NCBI GenBank assembly: GCA_018817915.1
Contig: JAHISX010000083.1
Coordinates: 1 to 32,380 of the forward strand
Length of the DNA stretch: 32,380 nt
Reading direction: 5' to 3'
Source: Bacillota bacterium
GTDB lineage: Bacteria > Bacillota_I > Bacilli_A > Acholeplasmatales > Acholeplasmataceae
This document shows, in pieces, positions 8,632-13,585 of this stretch (its first letter is position 1; every line of letters starts with the position of its first letter). The translations under genes and the position numbers were made by a program. The notes beneath the pieces were generated by a model, which saw nothing but the letters and a program-made list of their open reading frames with translations, was not told where the DNA came from and did not search any database.

Positions 8632-8658
8632 AAAAAAACTGAAATCCTAAGATTCCAG
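8632..8658 (-). terminator. Terminator overlapping the 3' end of the K+ uptake operon
   Basis: Minus-strand CTGGAATC, loop TTAG, GATTTCAG, then seven T. The loop is the stop codon of the TrkH/KtrB gene, so the hairpin includes its last codons. Confidence 0.85.
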
Positions 8659-10149
8659 CTTTTTAATTGTTTTCGGTTTCTTTTTTGATATATCTTGTGT
8701 GATTTTTGCAATAGCCACAAAGACAACATAGAATTCAAGACGTCCAAGGAACATACCAACTGTGGATGTCCATAAAATGATTGGATGCGCAGTATATCCT
8801 GTAATACCAACAGAAAGACCTACTGTACCTAAGGCTGAAGCAAATTCAAACAATGAATCTCTAATACTATAACCATAGCTAGAAAATACGAGTGTTCCTA
8901 AGATTAAAACAATTAAATAAATCATTAAGAACGAATGATTTTGGATGATATCATCCTTATCAACAATGGTTTTGGCACCTAATTTATTAATAAAATGTGT
9001 GCGAATTGTTTTTTTATGTGTGAGTTGATCTTTAATATTCCAATACATACTCTTGAATGCTAATGCCACACGATACTGTTTCATCCCACCGGCTGTAGAA
9101 CCCATCCCTGCACCTAAAACCATAGGAATGATAATTGCTAAGATGAAGAAACTTGGTAATGTTAGAAAGCTTGGTACGGTTTGATAACCAGTACCTGTAA
9201 TTGCTGATATAAATTGAAAGCTTGATATTCTTAACGAATAGAAGAATCGACCATCATAAAATGATAAGACATTAATTGTCATGAGTGGAATAAAGATAAC
9301 TAAAAGAATACCTAATAATTTAATTTCAACATGATTGAAGACGTTCTTCATTTTTCCCTTGATCAACATCAAGTGAACAAAGAAGTTTGTTCCACCTAAA
9401 ATCATTAGAACCATCGTTGTAATTTCAATAGGAACGCTATTATAGGCACCGATACTACCAGATTGGGTTGAAAACCCACCTGTAGCAACAGCACAAATAG
9501 AATGATTGATTGCATCAAATGGTGCCATACCAAATAAAACATAGAACAGTGAACCAATCGCAATATATCCAATATAGATCGATAAAATAGTGCGTCCTGA
9601 TTTAATCAGGTTAGGCATCAATTTATCACTATGTCCTTCTGCACTATATAATCTCATTCCAAATTTATCAGAAATAGCTGATGTTAAGACCAATACAAGT
9701 CCAACACCACCGAAAAATTGGAGAAGACTTCTAAAAAGTAAGAATAGTTTTGGAACAGATTCTACATTAACAACTGTTAACCCAGTTGTAGAAAATCCTG
9801 AAGTCACTTCAAAAATGCTTTGTGTAAAGTTATATGTACCAGATAAGATAAAAGGTACGGATGAAATTAAAATAGCAAGTAACCAGATAGCAACAACCAA
9901 AACAGCATCTTGATGTCTTTCTAATTTGCCTTTTTCTCTACCTCTAAATAAGAAAATAATAAAAGATCCTACCATGATACTTGTTAATCCCGGAATGAGA
10001 AAGTAATGTGAAAATTCTAGTTCCTCAGGAATAAAAATTAAAAGTATGAGTGGTAAAAGATTGATAAAACCGATTAAAAAGGCAAAGATACCCAAATAGT
10101 TGATAATGAGTGGATATCCTGAAGTAACTCTTTTTTCCATTTTGTTCAT
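8647..10149 (-). CDS. ktrB: Potassium uptake membrane subunit, TrkH/KtrB family
   Basis: This 500-residue polytopic protein is the ion-conducting subunit of a Trk/Ktr K+ (Na+-coupled) uptake system. The four pore-loop repeats with selectivity-filter glycines are visible: VTSGFSTTGLTVV, ATGGFSTQSGSIG, ITGTGYQTVPSF and SALGTVGLSVGIT. Another family block is GAGMGSTAGGMKQYRVAL near residue 350. Length is typical of TrkH-like rather than the shorter KtrB of Bacillus. It overlaps the upstream RCK gene by ATGA, so gating subunits and channel are made together. A terminator overlaps its last codons. Confidence 0.94.
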   Translation of the reverse strand: MNKMEKRVTSGYPLIINYLGIFAFLIGFINLLPLILLIFIPEELEFSHYFLIPGLTSIMVGSFIIFLFRGREKGKLERHQDAVLVVAIWLLAILISSVPFILSGTYNFTQSIFEVTSGFSTTGLTVVNVESVPKLFLLFRSLLQFFGGVGLVLVLTSAISDKFGMRLYSAEGHSDKLMPNLIKSGRTILSIYIGYIAIGSLFYVLFGMAPFDAINHSICAVATGGFSTQSGSIGAYNSVPIEITTMVLMILGGTNFFVHLMLIKGKMKNVFNHVEIKLLGILLVIFIPLMTINVLSFYDGRFFYSLRISSFQFISAITGTGYQTVPSFLTLPSFFILAIIIPMVLGAGMGSTAGGMKQYRVALAFKSMYWNIKDQLTHKKTIRTHFINKLGAKTIVDKDDIIQNHSFLMIYLIVLILGTLVFSSYGYSIRDSLFEFASALGTVGLSVGITGYTAHPIILWTSTVGMFLGRLEFYVVFVAIAKITQDISKKKPKTIKKLES

Positions 10150-10808
10150 CTTTTCTTTTTAATGAATTCTATAATTTCATCTTGCTCATTTGGTGTAGAG
10201 ATAATAATGAGTTTATCTAAAGCTTTAATGACTGTATCCCCTTTAGGAATAATGACATGTGGATCTCTAAAGATACAACTAATATTGATATTTTTAGGAA
10301 AACTAATGTCCATAATGCGTTTATTGACAAGCATATAGTTTTCTTCAACGCCCATTTCAAGCATAACAACTTTTTCATCTTCGATTGAAAGAGTCTTAAT
10401 GATATTTTCTACTGATGATTCATTAAGAATGGTTTGTGCAAGTAAATATGTTGATGAAATCACACTGTCAACGCCTAATTTCTTAAATAGTTCAACATTT
10501 TTAGGGTTCTTCACTTTAGATACTGTACGTTTGATATTAAATTGTTTTTTAGCAGTGATACATGTTATATAATTATCTGTGTCGCTATCAGATAGTGCTA
10601 AAAGCACATCTGCATTATCAGCTTCTGCATCAGATAAAACATATGCTTTTGTAGGATCTCCAGGAAAAACAGCAATATCATTGCTTGTTGAAATATATTC
10701 AGCAAATTCTCTATCTTGATTGATTACAATAAGCTGATGGTGCTCTTCCTTAAGCATTTTTACAATAAAGTCAGCTTCATGTTTTCCGCCTGTGATGACG
10801 ATCTTCAT
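10146..10808 (-). CDS. trkA: TrkA/KtrA regulatory subunit with RCK_N and RCK_C domains
   Basis: The 220-residue cytosolic subunit has an N-terminal nucleotide-binding RCK domain (about 1-125; D66ADNADVLLALSDSDTDNYI matches the family) and a C-terminal RCK_C domain (about 140-218). The dinucleotide loop is degenerate: ITGGKHEADFIV replaces GxGxxG. It should assemble into the gating ring on the TrkH/KtrB channel. It lies between, and overlaps by ATGA, both a short RCK_N-only protein and the channel gene. The degenerate loop suggests that nucleotide is bound mainly by the short partner (inference). Confidence 0.9.
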   Translation of the reverse strand: MKIVITGGKHEADFIVKMLKEEHHQLIVINQDREFAEYISTSNDIAVFPGDPTKAYVLSDAEADNADVLLALSDSDTDNYITCITAKKQFNIKRTVSKVKNPKNVELFKKLGVDSVISSTYLLAQTILNESSVENIIKTLSIEDEKVVMLEMGVEENYMLVNKRIMDISFPKNINISCIFRDPHVIIPKGDTVIKALDKLIIISTPNEQDEIIEFIKKKR

Positions 10809-11224
10809 TTGGAATCCTCCTGTTTGTATAACTTCATAAACTCTTGAAGAGATAGTGTGAATGGATAGATTGCTTTAATGTATGTACCTTCAAGCAAGGT
10901 ACTTTTATCTGTATCTGCAAGTCTTACAAAGATATTTGGAACATTATAGATATAATAACAAATGTGTGCAAGATAAATATTAACATTATCGCTATCGGTT
11001 GTGATAACGACTGTTTTTGCATGTTTAACATATGAGTTTTCTAAAACTGATAAATCAGTGGCATCACCAACCACTTGATAACCAGAAAATGATTCTTGTA
11101 ATTTTCTAAAAGAATCGTCAGTGGCATCAACGATGATGACGTCTTCTCCGAGTTCTGACATTTGTGTAGCTATGTTGGAACCTAGTCGTCCTGAACCTAT
11201 CACAATAAACTTGTTTCTTTTCAT
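10805..11224 (-). CDS. Short TrkA-type protein with only the RCK_N (NAD/ATP-binding) domain
   Basis: The 139-residue protein is a single Rossmann-type RCK_N domain with an intact loop VIGSGRLGSNIA (about 8-19), the acidic end of strand 2 (VDATDD) and the TDSDNVNIYLAHI segment typical of TrkA. There is no RCK_C domain. It is the first gene of the K+ uptake operon, with an AAGGAGAT site before the ATG, and it overlaps the longer trkA gene by ATGA. From memory, a similar split TrkA pair occurs next to trkH in Thermotoga maritima (TM1088A/TM1088B). Hetero-oligomer formation with the longer RCK protein is inferred. Confidence 0.88.
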   Translation of the reverse strand: MKRNKFIVIGSGRLGSNIATQMSELGEDVIIVDATDDSFRKLQESFSGYQVVGDATDLSVLENSYVKHAKTVVITTDSDNVNIYLAHICYYIYNVPNIFVRLADTDKSTLLEGTYIKAIYPFTLSLQEFMKLYKQEDSK

Positions 11225-11300
11225 AATTCTTATCTCCTTGGGCTCGTGTTTGCTTAACAGAACTCAAACATAAATTTGTAAGAAATAAAACACCTCAATT

Positions 11301-11309
11301 ATTTTAACA
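11301..11309 (-). promoter_or_regulatory. Extended -10 promoter of the K+ uptake operon
   Basis: Minus-strand TG-T-TAAAAT (11309-11301), no clear -35. It lies about 75 bases upstream of the short RCK gene; the leader contains GTTTG...CAAAC arms of a small hairpin. Confidence 0.45.
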
Positions 11310-11330
11310 CTCTTTTGCCAAAACTGACTA

Positions 11331-11362
11331 AAAAAAAGAGTATATCATTATATATTATACCC
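11331..11362 (-). terminator. Terminator of the antiporter gene
   Basis: Minus-strand GGGTATA, an 11-base AT loop, TATACTC, then at least seven T. It lies about 20 bases after the antiporter stop and before the K+ uptake promoter. Confidence 0.8.
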
Positions 11363-11383
11363 TTTTTTCTTTGATTTTTGTAT

Positions 11384-12565
11384 TTAAATTGTTTGTTTGA
11401 GCAATTTTGAATAGGTTTTATCCATAAGGATAGCACCTATGGGTGCAGTGATTACAATGGCTAGAACTGCTATCGTCAAGATGAGACTTCCACTGGATAT
11501 ACCAAGTGATAATGGAATAGAGCCAATTGCTGCTTGAACTGTTGCTTTTGGCATATAAGATAATCCCACATATATCTTCTCTTTCACATTTAACGAAGAT
11601 TTGAAAAGAGACATGAACACACCAATCATTCTAAATGTCATTGCAAGCACAATCAACAAACAAGCGATGAGACCAACGTTTGCCATGACGGTAATATCGA
11701 CTGCTGCACCAACTAAGACAAAGAGCATAATCTCAGCTATAACCCAGATTTTTTCAAACTTAGACACTAATCTTTTGGCCAATGTTTCATGTTGCTTTAA
11801 AATCGTTCCCCCAAGTGTCATAACTGCAAGTAATCCAGAAATTGGGATTAAACCAGCCAGTGCTCTTTCTAAAACAATAAATAAAAAACCAACACTAAAA
11901 ATAATGAGTACTTTAATTGTATCTCTCATATGAACTTTAATAAAAAACTTGGTAAGGATAATGCCTGATATAATTCCTAAAATGATACCTAAAACCACTG
12001 ATATAGGAACAAAAGCAAGTGATAACATCGAAAATCCATTTCCTTGATACATTTGTATAAGTGATGTGAAGATGATGATAACATAAACATCATCAATAGA
12101 TGCTCCGGCTAATATCATTTGAGGAATTTTTTTGTTTTCTCCGTAACCTGATGATATGAGACGAATCATTCTAGGAACAACTACTGCGGGTGAAACAGCC
12201 GCAACAACTGAGCCTAGGATCGCAGCATCTAAATAAGATATGTCGAAAAGTAGCGGTGCAAATATTGTGATGGCTATCATTTCAATCGTTGCTGGAATGA
12301 ATGATAGCAAGATTGCAGTTTTACCAACTTTCTTCAAATCCTCAAAATCTAAGGATAACCCAGCACGAATCAAAATAACAATCAAAGCAATTTGTCTTAA
12401 ATCAGCTGAAATATCTAATATGTCTGGACTTATAAGGTCAAAAACGAATGGTCCTAAGATGATACCAGCAATAAGCATACCGATCATTCTAGGCAGTTTT
12501 ATAAGTTCAAAAACCTGGGACATAAACAAACTTGTGATAATGATTAAGGCAACACTTAATAACAT
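11384..12565 (-). CDS. Cation:proton antiporter (CPA family) under fluoride riboswitch control
   Basis: The product (393 residues from the ATG at 12565, with GGAGG five bases upstream; a TTG 12 bases earlier lies inside the ribosome site) is a Na+/H+ exchanger-fold protein (PF00999) with 11-13 hydrophobic segments. Family features include PRMIGMLIAGIILGP near the N-terminus, SPAVVVPRMI in the fourth-fifth helix region and an acidic pair in AGASIDDVYVI, at the site expected to carry the transported cation or proton. There is no C-terminal TrkA domain. The promoter, riboswitch aptamer and terminator upstream show control by fluoride. CPA-family antiporters are a known minority class of fluoride-riboswitch targets. 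Its exact role during fluoride stress (ion or proton balance, or fluoride export) is not known from sequence. Confidence 0.9.
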   Translation of the reverse strand: MLLSVALIIITSLFMSQVFELIKLPRMIGMLIAGIILGPFVFDLISPDILDISADLRQIALIVILIRAGLSLDFEDLKKVGKTAILLSFIPATIEMIAITIFAPLLFDISYLDAAILGSVVAAVSPAVVVPRMIRLISSGYGENKKIPQMILAGASIDDVYVIIIFTSLIQMYQGNGFSMLSLAFVPISVVLGIILGIISGIILTKFFIKVHMRDTIKVLIIFSVGFLFIVLERALAGLIPISGLLAVMTLGGTILKQHETLAKRLVSKFEKIWVIAEIMLFVLVGAAVDITVMANVGLIACLLIVLAMTFRMIGVFMSLFKSSLNVKEKIYVGLSYMPKATVQAAIGSIPLSLGISSGSLILTIAVLAIVITAPIGAILMDKTYSKLLKQTI

Positions 12566-12575
12566 AGATACCTCC

Positions 12576-12610
12576 AAAAAAAAACTTCACAACAAAAATG
12601 TTGTAGAAGT
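12576..12610 (-). terminator. Riboswitch-controlled terminator of the antiporter
   Basis: Minus-strand ACTTC-T-ACAACA, a 5-base loop tract, TGTTGT-GAAGT, then nine T. Its 5' arm contains the CTTC used in the aptamer pseudoknot, so aptamer folding and terminator folding exclude each other. It ends one base before the Shine-Dalgarno site. Confidence 0.88.
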
Positions 12611-12662
12611 CATTAGCTTTCGCGGTTCAAGTACAGTACTTAGGGAGACGTTCATTCCCTAT
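12600..12662 (-). ncRNA. Fluoride riboswitch (crcB motif)
   Basis: The minus-strand leader matches the fluoride aptamer consensus. A first stem AGGGA/TCCCT encloses loop AATGAACGTC. An extra small hairpin (AAGTA/TACTT) follows. The conserved GAACCGC-GAAA-GC element comes next, then TAATGACTTCTAC, equivalent to the conserved (C/T)TGATG...CTAC 3' end. The pseudoknot is supported by complementarity: loop GAA(C)GTC pairs with GACTTC, six base pairs with one bulged C. The 3' strand of the pseudoknot is also the 5' arm of the following terminator, so fluoride binding should allow transcription of the antiporter gene. The assignment is from the remembered consensus, not from a covariance-model search. 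Confidence 0.88.
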
Positions 12663-12667
12663 AGTCA

Positions 12668-12695
12668 ATTATACATCTTTCACCTTTCATGTCAA
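12668..12695 (-). promoter_or_regulatory. Promoter of the fluoride riboswitch/antiporter transcript
   Basis: Minus-strand TTGACA (12695-12690), 16 bases, TATAAT (12673-12668): both hexamers are perfect. The -35 overlaps the stop region of the upstream DUF1295 gene. The start point falls just before the aptamer. Confidence 0.85.
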
Positions 12696-13585
12696 GAATT
12701 TTCTTGAGTTGATGTTTGTGCTTCTTTAGGAATAAAAGGAATGAGCATCGAAACACGTTGTTGATAGTCCTTATACTCTGGTCTTGTCGTTAAAATCTTC
12801 TTTTCCATCCAAGGAATGCTGACAAAAAGAAATAGTGCGGTCATCATCATTGGAGCAAACAAATAGATATCGAATTTCATTGTAGAACCGAAGTACATGA
12901 TGTATAATCCCCACCATAAAGTAATTTCACCAAAATAGTTGGGATGTCTTGAGTATTTCCATAAACCTTCTTCAATACACTTCTTCTGTCCACGATGCTT
13001 TTCTTTGAATTCCTTCATTTGTTGATCTGCAAAAAACTGAATTGTCGCTGCACCAACCATCAATATAAATCCAATCCAAATAAAAATATTCATTGAAGGA
13101 CTCATGGATATAAATTTTGTAGCAGCAATTAATTGAATGAACACAATTAAAGTTGGAAATAATTGAATACCAAATAAATTCGTTAAGAAATAAAGTTTTG
13201 GTGATTTTTTTCGCATGAGTTGATATCTCCAATCAACTTCATTAAAATCTGTCCATCTGGTTGCCCAATTATAAGTTAATCTGATACTCCATATGAGTAA
13301 ACCAGAAAAAAGTAAGATGATGCTCAGTATAGCTGGCTTATTTAAAAAGATAATAACACCTAAAATAATAGCTGGTGGAATGACACTCCAGTACGGATCA
13401 TATACACTAGCATTTCTAAGGATTAAACTCAATATCCAAGTGACCAAAGTCATGATAACATCAGCAACCAATAAACGATAAATAAGTGATAGTTGCGGTA
13501 ATAAAATGAAAACTGCCACACCGACAACAATAATGAATGCATAAATGATAAACATTATTAGAAGTGATTTATTCTTATGTGTCAT
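12692..13585 (-). CDS. DUF1295 / steroid 5-alpha-reductase-like membrane protein
   Basis: This 297-residue protein has about seven hydrophobic segments and matches the DUF1295 family. Motifs are NASVYDPYWSVIPP (about 53-66), TYNWATRWTDFNEVDWRY (about 106-123) and the C-terminal EEGLWKYSRHPNYFGEITLWWG (about 204-225), which in this superfamily binds NADPH. The family includes uncharacterised reductases and methyltransferase-like membrane enzymes, and the substrate is unknown. It follows bioY by 35 bases with an AAAGGAG site and no intervening terminator, so it is probably the last gene of the fatty acid operon. A lipid substrate is a plausible guess only. Confidence 0.85.
   Translation of the reverse strand: MTHKNKSLLIMFIIYAFIIVVGVAVFILLPQLSLIYRLLVADVIMTLVTWILSLILRNASVYDPYWSVIPPAIILGVIIFLNKPAILSIILLFSGLLIWSIRLTYNWATRWTDFNEVDWRYQLMRKKSPKLYFLTNLFGIQLFPTLIVFIQLIAATKFISMSPSMNIFIWIGFILMVGAATIQFFADQQMKEFKEKHRGQKKCIEEGLWKYSRHPNYFGEITLWWGLYIMYFGSTMKFDIYLFAPMMMTALFLFVSIPWMEKKILTTRPEYKDYQQRVSMLIPFIPKEAQTSTQENS

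Follow-up and report, generated by a model that had tools for sequence, protein, structure and literature searches.

The fluoride riboswitches of the RF01734 family, of which those of Bacillus cereus crcB and Thermotoga petrophila are described examples, are built on a first stem (P1), a pseudoknot, a stem P3, a core with ACCGC and AUGAC, and a linchpin U. The linchpin A-U pair caps the pseudoknot (PMC8752731), the published covariation models of this RNA contain P1, the pseudoknot and P3 (PMC13273304), and the stretch joining P1 to P3 is shown as a junction (PMC11077080). In both examples, the 3' strand of the pseudoknot is also claimed by a terminator, which is the published design of the switch (PMC13273304; PMC2864571). 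Na+/H+ antiporters form the second commonest class of fluoride-riboswitch targets and have been linked to pH homeostasis under fluoride (PMC11139923); their role has so far mostly been argued from this homeostasis, frequently in organisms where exporters are present too. In the CD0656-7 operon of C. difficile, a fluoride riboswitch precedes a CLC-type protein, in first position, and an NhaP-type antiporter, in second position (PMC11477304). Finally, mammalian NHA2 (SLC9B2; 7p1i, 7b4l) has a set of residues that goes with electroneutral exchange of Na+ and Li+ (PMC8850199).

The window analysed here, meaning the whole stretch of 32,380 nucleotides, belongs to a genome of 2.13 Mb (assembly 95% complete) whose nearest named relatives are Acholeplasmataceae, among them Peloplasma aerotolerans. 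The first-pass annotation had spoken of a fluoride response gene in a small genome; the gene stands with its RF01734 match, and "small" was loose wording for 2.13 Mb. The riboswitch has all the elements listed above and differs from the two RF01734 examples by an extra hairpin between P1 and P3, an A-U instead of a G-C as second pseudoknot pair, a one-nucleotide bulge in the pseudoknot, a P3 of 2 bp and an antiporter as target. As in C. difficile, a cation/proton antiporter follows the fluoride riboswitch, but the first gene here is the antiporter itself, and CLC and CrcB are both missing from the genome. The encoded protein is about 30% identical to NHA2 and carries the same Asp-Asp, Glu, Arg, Lys and Thr ion site, whereas it is bacterial, 393 aa long without the long N-terminal part of NHA2, has Tyr in place of Trp456 and sits under a fluoride riboswitch. 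Na+/H+ antiporters preceded by fluoride riboswitches are already known (PMC11139923); what is added here is a pattern that spans the clade and a sub-form of the aptamer. In the literature searched, no paper joined fluoride, riboswitch and Acholeplasma.

Architecture of the riboswitch RNA

The elements of the riboswitch, in order of transcription, are as follows.

12668-12695, minus strand: promoter, with TTGACA (12695-12690), a 16-nt spacer and TATAAT (12673-12668), 12 of 12 consensus matches
12597-12668, minus strand: fluoride riboswitch aptamer RF01734 (36.5 bits, E 9.1e-7), with homologues before the same gene throughout the genus
12642-12660, minus strand: stem P1, AGGGA (12660-12656) with TCCCT (12646-12642)
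12629-12641, minus strand: extra hairpin, a putative "P2", AAGTA-CTG-TACTT (AAGTACTGTACTT), between P1 and the ACCGC core and at the same place in the family sequences
12606-12627, minus strand: core and 3' pseudoknot strand, with AACCGC, a 2-bp P3 (GC-GAAA-GC), UAAUGA and ACUUC (12610-12606)
12576-12610, minus strand: intrinsic terminator (expression platform), ACUUCUACAACA-UUUU-UGUUGUGAAGU followed by a U-run, the hairpin at -12.3 kcal/mol in RNAfold
12571-12575, minus strand: ribosome binding site GGAGG, read from the sequence, directly after the T-run

The covariance search, chosen beforehand as the test of the fluoride riboswitch proposed by the first-pass annotation, gave 36.5 bits against a curated gathering score of 34 bits, and this identity was therefore retained. 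The match is full length (positions 1-64 of the 64 of the model, cmscan) and is the only one above the cut-off in the 2.13-Mb genome; two further matches of 13 bits (E 0.5) were taken as chance. For the window aptamer itself, a chance match was ruled out by the covariance score together with conservation. Three points count against its reading as a fluoride switch: a score only 2.5 bits over the cut-off, the bulged pseudoknot and the P3 of 2 bp. The promoter, first stem, core, pseudoknot and overlapping terminator previously proposed were all recovered on the minus strand, and the pseudoknot was recovered in the form in which it had been drawn.

A consensus scan of 11150-12800 listed the promoter at 12695-12668 as the sole perfect site. 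Its TTGACA shares letters with the stop codon of the gene upstream, which encodes a DUF1295 protein, and a TTGACA-like -35 is seen again in genus members. The loop of P1, ATGAACGTC, supplies GAA(C)GU as the 5' strand of the pseudoknot, the letters GAACGTC occupying 12653-12647. Among homologues, the letters of P1 vary while pairing is kept (GGGA/TCCC, GGCG/CGCC, GGTG/CACC, GGAA/TTCC, GGTA/TACC). Further downstream stand GAACCGC (12628-12622), GCGAAAGC (12623-12616) and GACTTC (12611-12606). The pseudoknot joins GAA(C)GU to ACUUC with the C as a bulge, and a one-base bulge (C or U) occurs at this place in the host genus and in some other genera.

Counts for P1, its loop and the pseudoknot refer to the 115 sequences parsed out of 119, four being unparsed. 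Watson-Crick pairs of the pseudoknot are kept at 525 of 575 positions in these 115 sequences, compared with 460 (sd 5) when the strands are re-dealt among the sequences, a control that ignores relatedness. The U of the linchpin A-U pair stands at 12605, directly after ACUUC; it is present in 115/115 parsed homologues, and the A that opens the 3' strand in 113/115.

The arms of the terminator, ACTTCTACAACA (12610-12599) and TGTTGTGAAGT (12594-12584), are followed by nine T (12584-12576), and its 5' arm contains the 3' pseudoknot strand ACUUC. An equivalent hairpin with a T-run is present in relatives. The ATG at 12565 opens the 393-aa frame of the antiporter; a mechanically listed TTG start at 12577 is unlikely, as it sits at the end of the T-run. 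With this overlap, the element at 12668-12597 reads as a fluoride-ON transcriptional riboswitch, by the usual rivalry of pseudoknot and terminator for one strand.

Extra hairpin and two aptamer forms

The extra hairpin at 12641-12629 is aligned as an insert by the RF01734 model and occupies the same place in every family sequence read. Its support is comparative: RNAfold applied to the single window sequence did not form it, whereas the contiguous stem in hairpin-bearing sequences has a mean of 4.6 pairs against 2.5 in shuffles. This pattern indicates that the hairpin noticed by the first-pass annotation between the first stem and the core is real.

The 115 aptamers fall into two forms. In the first, the loop is AUGG, P1 is in most cases GGCG/CGCC and ACCGC follows after a short link; in the second, the loop AUGA goes with a P1 that is in most cases GGGA/UCCC and with the extra hairpin in the link. 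AUGA is found in 90/90 parsed forms with the hairpin and the hairpin is absent from 22/22 AUGG forms, with one AUUA form that also does without it. Two apparent cases of AUGA without hairpin (genomes G087 and G371) proved to be parsing errors, caused by AAATGC inside their hairpins. Since the fourth letter of the loop forms the second pseudoknot pair, G-C in the AUGG form and A-U in the AUGA form, the hairpin occurs solely with an A-U pair and never with G-C, and this in many families. Two families, f14 and f20, hold both forms, so that the association is not explained by descent alone. Its strictness makes it a natural experiment on aptamer stabilisation. The numbering from P1 to P3 used in later papers suggests that the hairpin had been drawn as an optional P2 in the original 2012 description of the fluoride riboswitch.

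The antiporter, its neighbours and its distribution

The controlled gene and the region downstream of it are organised as follows.

11384-12565, minus strand: controlled gene, an NHA2/SLC9B2-type cation/proton antiporter by sequence (393 aa; PF00999, E 1.6e-42)
11225-11383, minus strand: gap after the antiporter, with a weak hairpin (GGGTATA...TATACTC) and eight T, then a putative extended -10 GTGTTAAAAT
8647-11224, minus strand: Trk genes (Pfam), TrkA-type (10805-11224), TrkA-type (10146-10808) and TrkH (8647-10149)

The first-pass annotation had named a CPA-type antiporter as the controlled gene, neither crcB nor eriC, and this is borne out by the Na_H_Exchanger match (PF00999) and can be refined. 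By its sequence, the protein belongs to the NHA2/SLC9B2 type. Indeed, its nearest PDB sequences are those of mammalian NHA2 (phmmer, E 2.6e-43 and 1.5e-42), with MjNhaP1 far behind (1.8e-13), and it shows the Glu-Arg pair, the Asp-Asp pair, the Lys and the Thr that mark this type. Its residues E95, D158, D159, R312, K340 and T342, named together with Y337, correspond in the phmmer alignment to Glu214, Asp277-Asp278, Arg431, Lys459 and Thr461 of NHA2. Glu95, Arg312, Lys340 and Thr342 are invariant in the 104 riboswitch-linked proteins compared and Asp158-Asp159 is kept in 102 of them. In an AlphaFold2 model (mean pLDDT 79.5), NHA2 was the best Foldseek match (E 1.1e-16), while VIA-align grouped several Na+/H+ exchangers and put MjNhaP1 and SOS1 above NHA2 by Z; as the structural aligners do not single out NHA2, the assignment rests on sequence and residues. 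By analogy with NHA2, the protein most likely swaps Na+ for H+ without net charge.

The Asp pair is lost in two riboswitch-linked antiporters of the same genus, which is a poor fit with plain Na+/H+ exchange. One has EN (genome G039, locus L019, 5001-6176) and the other DN (genome G033, locus L070, on the contig of L010). In the former locus, the neighbours are 80-97% identical to those of the window and the antiporter 73%, as if it had been exchanged or were evolving fast.

The riboswitch and antiporter are preceded by the DUF1295 gene and followed by the genes of both TrkA-type proteins, of TrkH and of a LytTR regulator; the majority of 19 relative loci show this order.

The host genome was searched for the two known exporters, as the first-pass annotation had proposed, and neither was found, nor were they elsewhere in the genus. 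For CrcB (PF02537), the best match in the host, whose frame is broken by four stops, reached 15.8 bits against a cut-off of 32.9, and Voltage_CLC (PF00654) had no match in the genome. CrcB is found in 0/88 genomes of the Acholeplasmataceae, CLC in 8/88 and in none of the 20 of the genus. The riboswitch is present in 39/88 family genomes, including all 20 of the genus, and a relative of the antiporter in 44/88; in genus members with a readable gene, the same antiporter follows the riboswitch. With riboswitch and antiporter but neither known exporter throughout a genus, the exchanger is well suited to testing how else cells can cope with fluoride. In Peloplasma aerotolerans, which bears a strain name and is not a MAG, the antiporter's own contribution is testable without an exporter background.

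Upstream of five antiporter genes without a riboswitch match (genomes G003, G005, G006, G016 and G077), no recognisable aptamer was seen by eye. In two of these (G005 and G006, loci L180 and L181), the antiporter lies directly 3' of a frame resembling a membrane transporter.

At the level of the class, the riboswitch occurs in 95 of 395 genomes; a search of the phylum yielded this class once more and contributed next to nothing beyond it. Outside the family, the antiporter is the first long frame downstream of 73 of 82 riboswitches, within 150 nt for 69 and across 13 families. The antiporter is therefore the normal target in this bacterial class; the earlier note had rightly named it as target but had counted it among minority effectors, which does not hold here. 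Among the nine other riboswitches, one precedes crcB (G095) and two precede CLC genes (G243, G385), as judged from match positions; the remaining six comprise a decayed antiporter (G182), two contig ends (G136, G229) and three unclear targets (G115, G158, G239). In G182 (locus L117), the riboswitch still stands before the decayed gene, and the related G115 (locus L109) has no readable gene there. An altered genetic code behind the missing frames of these two loci was considered and found unsupported, L117 having an antiporter remnant. Likewise, tandem riboswitches in G181 are identical copies around a run of N and were read as an assembly duplication.

Carriers of the riboswitch hold a CLC gene in 26 of 95 cases, compared with 51 of the 300 other class genomes. 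A strict exclusion between riboswitch and CLC is thus absent from the class, the odds ratio of 1.8 pointing in the opposite direction. Since carriers hold CLC at least as often, the exporter-free state is a feature of the family and of some other genomes, not of all carriers, and a replacement of exporters by the antiporter would be supported at most within the Acholeplasmataceae.

Possible roles of the antiporter and of the trk genes

The riboswitch very probably turns on a sodium/proton exchanger and not a known fluoride pump. We hold it rather probable that it is a fluoride-activated transcriptional switch controlling an NHA2-type Na+(Li+)/H+ exchanger that protects pH by extruding H+. Without fluoride, ACUUC (12610-12606) would enter the terminator hairpin and transcription would end before the ribosome binding site; with Mg-fluoride bound, ACUUC would stay paired to the P1 loop in the pseudoknot, no terminator would form and the antiporter would be made. 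Entry of HF under fluoride stress would acidify the cytoplasm, and the antiporter, driving H+ out on an inward Na+ gradient, would then protect its pH. Extrusion of H+ is preferred because a link between fluoride, acidification and antiporters has been published (PMC11139923).

Extrusion of H+ would, by raising cytoplasmic pH, also trap more fluoride in the cell, which argues for the reverse direction. In such an exchange, H+ would enter and Na+ leave, the pH gradient would shrink with the membrane potential untouched, and fluoride would leave as HF, giving fluoride tolerance without a fluoride exporter. This is a serious rival, although we judge it clearly the less likely direction. NHA2 is thought to export Na+ on an inward H+ gradient (PMC8850199), yeast acclimated to fluoride withstands a lower pH inside the cell (PMC11139923), electroneutrality suits an effect on the pH gradient only, and the lack of CrcB in the family and of CLC in the genus is in line with it; but acidification is itself harmful under fluoride, and an inward Na+ gradient with an acid cytoplasm would push the H+ of an electroneutral exchanger outward. 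In a broader and rather unlikely proposal, fluoride resistance in this CrcB-free and mostly CLC-free family would rest on the fluoride-induced NHA2-type exchanger, which would be a third exporter type or would let HF out by way of the pH gradient.

The gap between antiporter and trk genes bears on an alternative that we consider improbable, in which antiporter, TrkA, TrkA and TrkH form one operon under the riboswitch and fluoride raises K+ uptake and cation exchange together. Of 19 loci, 18 have the order antiporter-trkA-trkA-trkH, an association of K+ transport genes with the crcB motif was recorded in 2010 (PMC2864571), and read-through past so weak a terminator is possible: the consensus scan listed no terminator at 11225-11383, as the hairpin has few G-C pairs. 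The best promoter that it listed there matches 9 of 12 letters. However, the gap measures 159 nt in the window and roughly 120-205 nt across relative loci, in the window it contains the hairpin with its eight T, and a box resembling TAAAAT, usually with TG before it, is conserved across 18 aligned loci; in addition, one antiporter (locus L015) has no trk genes nearby. From these signals, the gap is probably the end of the antiporter unit together with a separate trk promoter, so that the Trk genes probably have their own promoter and are unlikely to be driven by the riboswitch.

Export of fluoride by the antiporter itself (as F-/H+ or HF), which would add a third family to the exporters Fluc/CrcB and CLC-F, is very unlikely. 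In genomes that lack both known exporters, no other gene was found under a fluoride riboswitch, and the related NHA1 was at one time proposed to transport anions (as mentioned in PMC8850199), but the full NHA2 cation site is conserved in 102 of 104 proteins, NHA2 moved no K+ or Cl- (PMC8850199), and co-occurrence with CLC, both in some carriers of this antiporter and, for an NhaP-type protein, in the fluoride-riboswitch operon of C. difficile (PMC11477304), suggests complementary and not equivalent roles.

In the trk genes of the window, TrkA is split in two proteins, one of 139 aa with the nucleotide-binding domain alone and one of 220 aa with both domains. This pair (10146-11224) recurs in 18 relative loci, where its conservation exceeds that of the antiporter.
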